This document shows positions 11,917-44,118 of a stretch of DNA of 52,316 bases, piece after piece (positions within the stretch are counted from its first letter, which is position 1; each line of letters begins with the position of its first letter). Below the pieces are notes generated by a model, which did no database searches, was not told the origin of the DNA, and saw nothing but the letters and a program-made list of their open reading frames with translations. This stretch comes from a bacterium. GTDB lineage: Bacteria; UBA10199; JACPAL01; GCA-016699445. The translations under genes were made by a program, and so were the position numbers. The stretch covers positions 1-52,316 of the forward strand of contig DATIGE010000017.1 in assembly GCA_035454885.1 (NCBI GenBank), written 5' to 3'.

Positions 11917-12360
11917 TCATCTATTCCCGAAATTATCGTCGTCGAACCCGCCTCCGCTGCCGCCTCCTCCTCCGCCCCGGCCTCGGCCGCGTCCGTAGCC
12001 GCCCGCTCCTCCGCCCCCGCCGGCTGCATCCCTGAAGTTTCTGCGTCCGCTGTTTCCGCTGTCGCGCCGGTCGTCATACCCTCCGCCCCCTCCGCCCCGC
12101 GGGGCCCTCGGCTGTTCGGGACGGGCCTCGCTGACCGTCAGGGCCCGACCGCTCAAATCCTTGCCGTTCAACCCGTCGATGGCCTTTTGCGCCTCTTCCT
12201 CCGTCGCCATTTCGACGAAGGCGAATCCCTTCGAGCGCCCCGAGAACTTGTCGGTGATGATGCGAACGGACTCGATCGCGCCATGGGCGCCGAAGGCGTC
12301 GCGCAGGTCCGTCTCCGTGACGCTGTAGGGCAGGTTGCCCACGTAGAGTTTTTTGTTCAT
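11917..12360 (-). CDS. RRM-domain RNA-binding protein with glycine-rich tail
   Basis: One RNA-recognition motif (residues 1-80) with RNP2 LYVGNL and RNP1 KGFAFVEM. An Arg/Gly-rich tail of about 60 residues ending in repeated GGG and RGRGRGGGG runs follows. This is the layout of the cyanobacterial and bacterial Rbp proteins, often cold-induced, that bind RNA through the RRM. On the minus strand ATG 12360 is preceded by AAGGAGACCCC. It converges on the acyl-CoA synthetase with a 2-base gap. Function beyond RNA binding is not readable. Confidence 0.9.
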   Translation of the reverse strand: MNKKLYVGNLPYSVTETDLRDAFGAHGAIESVRIITDKFSGRSKGFAFVEMATEEEAQKAIDGLNGKDLSGRALTVSEARPEQPRAPRGGGGGGYDDRRDSGNSGRRNFRDAAGGGGGAGGYGRGRGRGGGGGGSGGGFDDDNFGNR

Positions 12361-13140: not shown

Positions 13141-13259
13141 TTATCCACAACCAGGCTGCCAACGGGCCACAGGGGGATTCCGCGGCCATCCAGACCCCAT
13201 CCCTGCGCGATTTGCCGACCGTCTTTGTGTGATATCAGTTATCCACAGGCTGTGGATGA
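13141..13259. promoter_or_regulatory. Cluster of DnaA-box-like sites
   Basis: Perfect TTATCCACA occurs at 13141-13149 and 13239-13247, and an inverted near-match (TCATCCACA on the minus strand) at 13251-13259. The last two form a dyad ATCCACAG-G-CTGTGGAT at 13241-13257. Such boxes bind the initiator DnaA. The sites could mark DnaA control of the flanking genes or part of an origin. No dnaA, dnaN, rpmH or gidA gene is in view, so origin status is not claimed. Confidence 0.45.
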
Positions 13260-13321
13260 AAAAAGCCTCAAAGGGAATCCTCAAGGGTTTCGCTTTCTTG
13301 AAAATTTCTGATATTCTGACG

Positions 13322-13350
13322 TTGAGCTTTCCGAGACTCTGTTGTTTAAG
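13322..13350 (+). promoter_or_regulatory. Predicted sigma-70 promoter for the structured RNA
   Basis: TTGAGC at 13322-13327 and TTTAAG at 13345-13350, 17 bases apart, are the best promoter-like pair upstream of the structured RNA. They place the transcription start near 13357, about 33 bases before the 5' arm of its closing helix. Assigned by eye and by position only. Confidence 0.4.
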
Positions 13351-13356
13351 CGTTTT

Positions 13357-14023
13357 CAGCGAGGGAATCGCTAAAGGTTCTTTGAAAATTCAATCGATCG
13401 TCAGGCAGGCGCGGTCCGAACGGCTTCTTCGCGGCGCTAGCAAGCCGGCTCGAATCCATCCGAATCTGCGGGAGGTCTCACCGTAAGGCGAGGTCACCGT
13501 GGAGGGTCCGGAACCAGGGTGGACGGTTCGGCTGAACGCGGAGGAAAACGCGGGCACAAAGGTTAGAGGGGGAGGCGTGGACGAAAGAAAGCGTCACATC
13601 CCGGCCCAACGCAAAACTCTCAGGATCATCCGAAGGGCACCCCGAAAGGGAGGCCGTAAGGAAAGATCGAAAGAGGAGGGACCTGGAAGCGGGTTCCAGG
13701 GGGGCGGGAGAAAACCCCAGAAACTTGGAAATCCCACAGGAGGACAGATAACCAAAGGCTTCGCACTCCAAGGAGCCAAAAGTTGTCGACTCTCATGGGC
13801 GGTAAAATCCTCGAAACCGAGGCGGCCGGGTTAGACCTTGGGTTTCCGCTCAAGCCATCCGGAGCAACCAACGGCAAGGGGGAATGGGACCTCCGACAAG
13901 GAGAATCCGCCATCCATGAGGATTTTGATACTCCAGAGGGACGGTAAGCCGCCTCCGGACGGTCGATTGATTCACAAGGCCCGGGTCGTCTTCGCAAGAA
14001 GACGCCCGGGCCTTCGTGTTTTT
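13357..14023 (+). ncRNA. Candidate large structured noncoding RNA, class unknown
   Basis: No credible protein fits here, but the sequence folds well. The ends pair over 13 bp with one U-G pair: 13390-13402 (TCAATCGATCGTC) with 13958-13970 (GACGGTCGATTGA). Enclosed hairpins include 13421-13426/13442-13447, 13477-13482/13487-13492 capped by GTAA, 13526-13529/13534-13537, 13537-13540/13549-13552, 13641-13643/13648-13650 capped by GAAA, 13682-13688/13694-13700, 13809-13813/13818-13822, and 13841-13851/13862-13869. The strand is purine-rich and ends in a strong terminator. Size and long-range closure recall large bacterial RNAs such as OLE, ROOL or GOLLD, but I recognise no signature of these, nor of RNase P RNA, tmRNA or group I/II introns. 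Confidence 0.6.
13976..14023 (+). terminator. Strong intrinsic terminator after the structured RNA
   Basis: Hairpin of 13976-13985 with 14005-14014 (AAGGCCCGGG/CCCGGGCCTT) plus 13987-13993 with 13998-14004 (CGTCTTC/GAAGACG). There is one bulged T and a GCAA tetraloop, 17 bp in all, followed by TGTTTTT at 14017-14023. The T-run is only on the plus-strand side, so it terminates rightward transcription, meaning the RNA element. It abuts the stop codon of the convergent deaminase gene. Confidence 0.9.
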
Positions 14024-14519
14024 AGCCGTTGTAGATGCGTCCCCCGGCCCTCTTGTAGGACGTGAGGATGCGGATGGCCGCCGTACGCTCGACCCCGGTG
14101 ACGACCGGGATGCCGCGGACCTGGAGGGCCTTTTTCCAATCGCGGGGCTTGAGACCCTCGTCGAAGCCGATCGCCTCCACGTCCTCCGTCGTCGCGGCGC
14201 AAACCACCCGCGAGATGCCCGCCCACACCAGGGCCGTCAGGCACATGCCGCAGGGCTCCGCGCTCACGTAAATCCCCGCCCGGATGCCCTTCTCCTTGAA
14301 GCTGAAACCCTTAAGACGCCTGGCCGCCATGCGGACCGCGAGGATCTCGGCATGGGCGGTGGGGTCGTGATCCCTTTCGACGCGGTTGACGCCTGCCCCG
14401 AGGAGGCGTCCCGTGTCGAGGTCGAAGACGGCCGCGCCAAAGGGGCCTCCCCGGCCCCGGTGGACGTTGTCCCGGGCCAGGCGAAGCGCAATCCGGATTC
14501 TCGTGAGATCGCTCTTCAA
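14022..14519 (-). CDS. Guanine-deaminase-like nucleobase deaminase
   Basis: Zinc-dependent deaminase of the cytidine/deoxycytidylate family, closest by eye to bacterial guanine deaminase (GuaD). It has the zinc and catalytic HAE in TAHAEILAVR and PCxxC in SAEPCGMCLTALVWAG, with GRGGPFGAAVFD at the N terminus. The frame opens at GTG 14570 inside the Usp gene without a ribosome-binding site. TTG 14519 lies 5 bases after the Usp stop, follows AAAGGG, and matches where family members begin (165 residues), so I use it. It is the last gene of the radical SAM-Usp operon. Substrate is inferred. Confidence 0.82.
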   Translation of the reverse strand: MKSDLTRIRIALRLARDNVHRGRGGPFGAAVFDLDTGRLLGAGVNRVERDHDPTAHAEILAVRMAARRLKGFSFKEKGIRAGIYVSAEPCGMCLTALVWAGISRVVCAATTEDVEAIGFDEGLKPRDWKKALQVRGIPVVTGVERTAAIRILTSYKRAGGRIYNG

Positions 14520-43436: not shown

Positions 43437-43799
43437 ATGTCTTGGAACGTCGAATATACAAATGAGTTCAATGAATGGTGGGAGACCTTGGACGAAAGTG
43501 AGCAGGAGGACGTCGCAGCGTATGTTGAACTGTTGGAAGCGAGAGGGCCGAATTTGGACTACCCACACTCGTCGAAAGTAAATGGTTCCCGATTTGAAAA
43601 GATGAGGGAACTGAGACCGCAACATAAGGGCAGACCTTACAGAGTCTTTTATGCCTTTGATCCACGTAGGGCAGCGGTTCTACTCATCGGCGGAGATAAA
43701 ACGGGGGACGATCGATTTTACGAAAAGTATGTTCCCAAGGCGGATAAAATTTACGAGAGGCATTTAGAAGAAATTAGAAAGGAAGGTCAGGATGGCTAA
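43437..43799 (+). CDS. RelE/HigB-type toxin (Gp49-like)
   Basis: 120 residues. The family pattern is clear: a short N-terminal strand VEYTNEFNEWWETLDESEQEDVAAYVELLEARG, then SSKVNGSRFEKMRELRPQHKGRPYRVFYAFDPRRAAVLLIGGDKTGDDRFYEKYVPKADKIY. These proteins are mRNA interferases acting at the ribosome. The toxin precedes the antitoxin, as in HigBA. It overlaps the antitoxin gene by 8 bases. Confidence 0.9.
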   Translation: MSWNVEYTNEFNEWWETLDESEQEDVAAYVELLEARGPNLDYPHSSKVNGSRFEKMRELRPQHKGRPYRVFYAFDPRRAAVLLIGGDKTGDDRFYEKYVPKADKIYERHLEEIRKEGQDG

Positions 43800-44118
43800 G
43801 CCCTTTAAAACGCTGCTCAAGAAAATGAGTCCGGAATCCCAAAAGAGGATTCGAGAGAAGGCGGACACTCTTTTAAAGGAGATCTTGTTGAAAGAACTGA
43901 GAGAGACTCGCAAGATCACTCAGGAAGATGTGGCGGAAATTCTTCAGGTCAATCAGTCCAGTGTTTCGAAGATCGAAAATCGGGGCACTTCGATTTCCGT
44001 TGGAGTCCTAGAAAACTATATTCATGCTTTAGGTGGCGAGCTGGAGATGAGGGCCCGTTTCTCAGACACCATCCTCCCGTTTTCTGTCTCTAAGGATGAT
44101 GACGAGCAAGTCGCCTAA
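43792..44118 (+). CDS. HigA-type XRE antitoxin
   Basis: 108 residues with a helix-turn-helix (LRETRKITQEDVAEILQVNQSSVSKIENRG) followed by SVGVLENYIHALGGELEMRARF, the layout of HigA-like antitoxins paired with Gp49-type toxins. The N-terminal SPESQKRIREKADTLLKEILLKEL helix probably wraps the toxin. GGAAGGTCAGG precedes ATG 43792. It should repress its own promoter. Confidence 0.9.
   Translation: MAKPFKTLLKKMSPESQKRIREKADTLLKEILLKELRETRKITQEDVAEILQVNQSSVSKIENRGTSISVGVLENYIHALGGELEMRARFSDTILPFSVSKDDDEQVA

Follow-up and report, generated by a model that had tools for sequence, protein, structure and literature searches.

This study was concerned with the question of what is encoded by positions 13357 to 14023 of the window (the whole stretch of DNA that was analyzed, 52,316 nucleotides). 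A preliminary description, made from the letters alone, had proposed a structured RNA of roughly 590 bases that belonged to no recognized class. It is rare for a new class of large structured bacterial RNA to be found, and no function has yet been agreed on for OLE, ROOL and GOLLD. The elements of the locus that are used throughout this analysis are listed below, with the evidence for each.

13141-13149, plus strand: distal perfect DnaA box TTATCCACA, at -237 from boxA (sequence and enrichment across loci)
13239-13247, plus strand: proximal perfect DnaA box TTATCCACA, at -139 from boxA (sequence and count across loci)
13251-13259, inverted: copy of the DnaA box with one mismatch, TGTGGATGA, following the proximal box
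13376-13389, plus strand: boxA-like antitermination element GGTTCTTTGAAAAT (same place in nearly all homologs; motif present in the host's own rrn leader)
13390-13402, plus strand: 5' strand of the closing (leader-trailer) helix, TCAATCGATCGTC (covariation; 12 held-out sequences)
13390-13970, plus strand: predicted core of a large structured RNA, about 580 nt with 27 consensus helices (covarying fold; no Rfam match)
13722-13892, plus strand: most conserved 3' domain (GGAAAUC..GAGGACAG..ACCAAAGG; GCCAAAAGU; ACCAACGGCA..GGGAAUG), from which models R1 and R2 were built
13958-13970, plus strand: 3' strand of the closing helix, GACGGTCGATTGA (sequence; covariation)
13976-14023, plus strand: intrinsic terminator, with a hairpin at 13976-14014, a GCAA loop and a T-run at 14019-14023 (sequence and fold)

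Homologs, reading frames and fold

Homologs of the element were collected in two ways. BLAST searches of 60 related genomes found it in 11, full-length in most, at 64-80% DNA identity. R1, a covariance model of the 3' domain, matched in 24 of the 46 species examined of the window's class, with E-values from 4e-53 to 2e-11. The species that carry the RNA are known from metagenome-assembled genomes. A protein-coding gene was rejected as an explanation of the locus, because the reading frame is not conserved and most indels are not multiples of 3. The open reading frames vary among the homologs with no frame in common, and the indel lengths leave a remainder of 1 in 149 cases, 2 in 60 cases and 0 in only 39 cases when divided by 3.

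The folding energy of the plus strand was -282.8 kcal/mol (z = -3.96 from 20 shuffles), and the minus strand scored nearly the same (z = -3.70). Since both strands have z near -3.8, folding energy by itself is not decisive. A consensus fold was therefore not judged by energy but by conservation. RNAalifold, applied to a 14-sequence alignment that was not fitted to structure, gave a fold of 137 pairs in 27 helices, in which 93.4% of cells were paired, compared to 37-50% when partners were slid by 1-3 columns and 74% when shuffled. Two-sided changes occur at 105 of the 137 pairs, and none of 500 shuffles reached such covariation. As an independent test, 12 diverged sequences that were unused in deriving the fold were aligned by MAFFT; 78% of their cells were paired, compared to 36-48% for the slid versions. 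These covarying pairs and the retention of the fold in held-out sequences settle the presence of a structured RNA on the plus strand. Thus, comparative sequence analysis confirmed 13390-13970 as encoding a large structured RNA of about 580-600 nt, predicted to be closed by a long-range helix.

With one exception, the coordinates given from the single sequence proved correct. The 13-bp pairing of the ends, 13390-13402 with 13958-13970, was correctly placed and consists of 12 Watson-Crick pairs and one G-U pair. Compensatory changes in this helix are two-sided at 10 of 11 scored pairs; 97.4% of its cells are paired across the homologs, and it is also kept in the 12 held-out sequences. Two of the outcomes that the preliminary description had named as evidence against itself, a significant Rfam match and a lack of covariation at paired positions, were looked for, and neither was observed. 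The terminator, with its T-run on the plus side only, was likewise found as described, with its hairpin and its T's at 14019-14023; a simple terminator scan did not list this hairpin. One element was drawn incorrectly. The 7-bp hairpin proposed at 13682-13700 is not the conserved pairing, which is instead a covarying hairpin shifted by a few bases (helix 15, with a GAAG loop at 13686-13689 and 99% of cells paired).

The boxA and DnaA elements upstream

The motif TTCTTTGAAAA or TTCTTTGACAA lies directly 5' of the closing helix in nearly every homolog. The boxA motif is also present in the rrn leader of the window's genome (CGCTCTTTGAAAACT; CGCTCTTTGAAAACTAAATAG) and of its relatives, and thus, judged against the host's own rrn leaders, the motif upstream of the RNA is a boxA. 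In E. coli, boxA is necessary and sufficient to recruit the rrn antitermination factors, and tethering through boxA has been proposed to favor leader-trailer pairing (PMC10250234). In about half of the loci the pairing extends outward through boxA. The leader-trailer energy was -11.0 kcal/mol for own trailers versus -5.8 kcal/mol for swapped trailers (permutation p about 2e-4); the window's own extension through boxA is weak, at -3.4 kcal/mol, and no better than the swapped controls.

The locus is similar to precursor rRNA in that the same boxA that is found in the host's rrn leaders is followed by a helix closing a long structured RNA. It is also similar in the arrangement of two tandem arrays from a single family, in which every unit carries its own boxA. 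One array contains four diverged units spaced 617-634 nt apart (L065, G041:C341) and the other contains two diverged units (L064, G044:C184). DnaA boxes are present only ahead of the first unit of each array. Terminator pattern scans gave no clear terminator either between the units or after the last one. The arrays resemble an rRNA-style operon of RNA units. However, the RNA differs from precursor rRNA in having no Rfam rRNA match and in not being universal in the class. In addition, the RNA gene is preceded by DnaA boxes, whereas of the six rrn leaders that were checked a single one had such a box within 1.5 kb.

Of 22 loci, 17 have a perfect TTATCCACA box in the 320 nt that precede boxA, compared to about 0.06 expected. 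The commonest position is -115 to -146 from boxA, with a second box at -223 to -290. Counted over larger regions, there are 26 perfect boxes in 7 kb of upstream sequence versus 2 in 239 kb of flanks. The remaining five loci are without a perfect box. Two of them carry a candidate that has one mismatch or is weaker, and in just one of these two does it lie near the usual position. One explanation is that the boxes belong to a replication origin or to a DnaA-titration site of the datA/DARS type, and that the RNA is either incidental or a local replication RNA. The one to three perfect boxes upstream of most loci would fit this explanation, and there is a precedent in the Caulobacter cell-cycle RNA CcnA, which sits in the replication origin (PMC8959179). 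CcnA is a noncoding RNA tied to replication control, as is proposed for the window's RNA, but CcnA is short, lies within the origin and is under CtrA, whereas the window's RNA is large, is preceded by DnaA boxes and is encoded at a great distance from the origin.

The oriC reading was rejected on the basis of GC skew and the position of dnaA. In G002 the RNA is located at 240 kb, about 505 kb from dnaA and the GC-skew minimum, which are both near 745 kb, and in G388, which is a single contig, about 1.77 Mb separate the RNA homolog and the dnaA gene. Furthermore, the distance from box to boxA is nearly fixed despite differing neighbors, which a promoter element fits better than an origin or a titration site. 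An origin or titration site is, for these reasons, a doubtful explanation; a titration role is still conceivable. Because the locus is not an origin and its neighbors are not common beyond the family level, the boxes resemble promoter elements that serve the RNA gene. We infer that DnaA may bind these boxes and regulate the RNA gene, a reading that rests on a 9-mer. A scan of the window found no consensus sigma-70 promoter.

Perfect DnaA boxes were also observed near the dnaA gene in several genomes (L084, L087, L088, L089, L091 and L095), which is consistent with DnaA autoregulation.

Known RNA classes and distribution of the RNA

The Rfam 15 covariance models were searched at both gathering and permissive thresholds, the latter giving only chance matches. 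No match at gathering was found in the window, and 13200-14100 gave none even with E allowed up to 10; the related loci are also without an Rfam match. The preliminary description saw no signature of RNase P RNA, tmRNA, SRP RNA or 6S RNA, and the corresponding Rfam models were indeed unmatched. These are standalone structured RNAs like that of the window, which differs from them in lacking such a match. For RNase P RNA, a separate gene was located in the window's genome, with an RF00010 match in G000 at C1:8974-9328, and it is also separate in 11 of 12 relatives tested. The window contains no tRNA, and ARAGORN likewise found no tmRNA.

A second explanation is that the RNA is a member or distant relative of OLE, ROOL, GOLLD or HEARO and acts likewise. 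Its size, long-range closure, standalone gene and lack of a known function are similar to those of the known large ornate classes. ROOL and GOLLD, for example, are also standalone RNAs of bacteria, about 500-900 nt in size, with elaborate folds and without a known function, and OLE RNA is about 600 nt with extensive secondary structure. However, most ROOL and GOLLD RNAs come from phages or prophages and are found near tRNAs (PMC12286853), whereas the window's RNA is chromosomal, comes from a lineage known from metagenome-assembled genomes, has boxA and DnaA boxes upstream and has no tRNA island in the window. Searches of phage records (50,697) and plasmid records (72,556) gave no match to it, and neither did a pattern search of viral contigs. 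It differs from OLE RNA in its lineage, in having no Rfam match and in having no conserved membrane-protein neighbor of the OapA type. The window's neighboring membrane protein is GPDPase_memb/UPF0259-like, is encoded on the strand opposite to the RNA and is not common to the other loci. OLE, ROOL and GOLLD are the closest in kind to this RNA, yet none of the membership features examined by sequence was found in it, and membership in a known large ornate class is very unlikely. The preliminary description had left open whether the RNA was a member of these classes or a new one; membership did not stand, and the second choice is favored. No description of such an RNA was found in the open-access literature, in which few preprints were covered. 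Judged against Rfam 15 and that literature, the results favor a new RNA family, which would count as a new class among the large ornate RNAs if that broad grouping is used.

The distribution of the RNA in its class is patchy (24 of 46) and not universal, because the weak R2 matches seen in the other members of the class show none of the further features; neither a boxA, nor a DnaA box, nor a match to the family accompanies them, and they are attributed to chance. Several other candidates were rejected. Pattern matches in Acidobacteria and Lachnospiraceae (L054, L058, L059 and L063) were without the closing helix and the remaining RNA, a weak model match in G120 (L156) lies within coding sequence, and short BLAST matches in G061, G111, G114, G121 and G390 lie in coding sequence or lack the features of the RNA. 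A class-wide comparison found no gene neighbor common to the loci beyond the family level. Neighbors are common within family f6, which suggests vertical inheritance.

Patchiness in the class and the lack of common neighbors at depth would be expected if the RNA belonged to a mobile element or to a guide-RNA, retron or defense system. However, the RNA gene is single-copy in the window's genome, the neighbors in f6 suggest vertical descent, the proteins checked beside the RNA included no reverse transcriptase, TnpB/IscB or Cas protein, and the RNA is absent from the phage and plasmid records. An element of this kind is extremely improbable. Lastly, a cis-acting leader or riboswitch-like element of a neighboring gene, as might be proposed for a structured intergenic RNA, has a negligible probability, since both flanking genes in the window are on the strand opposite to the RNA gene, the RNA has its own terminator, no downstream gene is common across the class, and arrays of two and four units would make no sense for a leader.

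A gene for a small protein with an RNA recognition motif (RRM) was observed at 11917-12360 on the minus strand of the window, about 1 kb from the RNA gene; it is absent beside the other loci.

Proposed role and probable relatives

The reading that we prefer, and consider probable, is that the locus encodes a standalone, trans-acting large RNA of a new class, which is transcribed in the manner of rRNA and whose synthesis is tied to DnaA. A trans-acting RNA is indicated because no neighbor is common beyond the family and because of the orientation of the window's flanking genes. Judging from sequence, the RNA gene is presumably transcribed. DnaA would bind the upstream boxes and regulate the promoter, and RNA output would thereby track replication initiation or growth. 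NusB/S10 on boxA would keep RNA polymerase processive along the long untranslated RNA. The NusB/S10-loaded boxA would also keep the 5' strand close to the exit channel, such that the trailer could pair with it and the molecule could close, as has been proposed for pre-16S rRNA. The finished RNA might then serve as a scaffold, either by itself or together with proteins. The purine-rich stretches that are invariant and unpaired would serve this function, and the role would be linked to growth or replication. The role after transcription, as a scaffold or ribonucleoprotein, is a guess.

An rRNA-type boxA and DnaA boxes are regulatory clues that OLE, ROOL and GOLLD lack. Because these elements accompany the RNA, its expression, folding route and timing are directly testable. 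If control by DnaA is true, this would be a large noncoding RNA governed by the replication initiator. In addition, a boxA and leader-trailer helix outside of rRNA would provide a second natural case for how antitermination complexes aid the folding of long RNAs.

Model R2 found one more locus in another lineage, in G223 (E = 1.3e-6). The RNA of this locus (L155:930-2010, minus strand; G223:C61:226915-227995) is intergenic and measures about 1,040 nt. It is preceded by a perfect DnaA box and closed by a long helix, and internal-loop modules that follow the pattern AAA-C-Y-C-U-G-A-A-G are repeated many times within it. Collinear matches to the family profile occur at three places (positions 154-381, 429-564 and 549-594). 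GC-rich RNAs of about 1 kb were also found in G217 (L158:800-1900) and G388 (L160:1250-2700); these have a mutual identity of 77% and are related to the G223 RNA (nhmmer E = 4e-19 in a small set). Each is preceded by a DnaA-box-like site just upstream, TTATCCACA or TTATCCACC. Homology of these 1-kb RNAs to the window's RNA is probable, not proven. A broader proposal, which we put forward tentatively and consider possible at best, is that all belong to a superfamily of giant RNAs, ranging from about 580 nt here to about 1 kb in at least two other lineages, that would be switched by DnaA, transcribed like rRNA and act as a replication-coupled machine or scaffold linking chromosome replication to growth in bacteria that have mostly been seen through metagenomes.

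One other region of the window stood out in its composition. Between 40000 and 44500 the GC content drops from about 0.63 to about 0.47, and an HNH-like protein is encoded there. An adjacent pair of genes, Gp49-like (HigB-type) and HTH, lies at 43437-44118 within this low-GC stretch, which is probably an island carrying a toxin-antitoxin pair.
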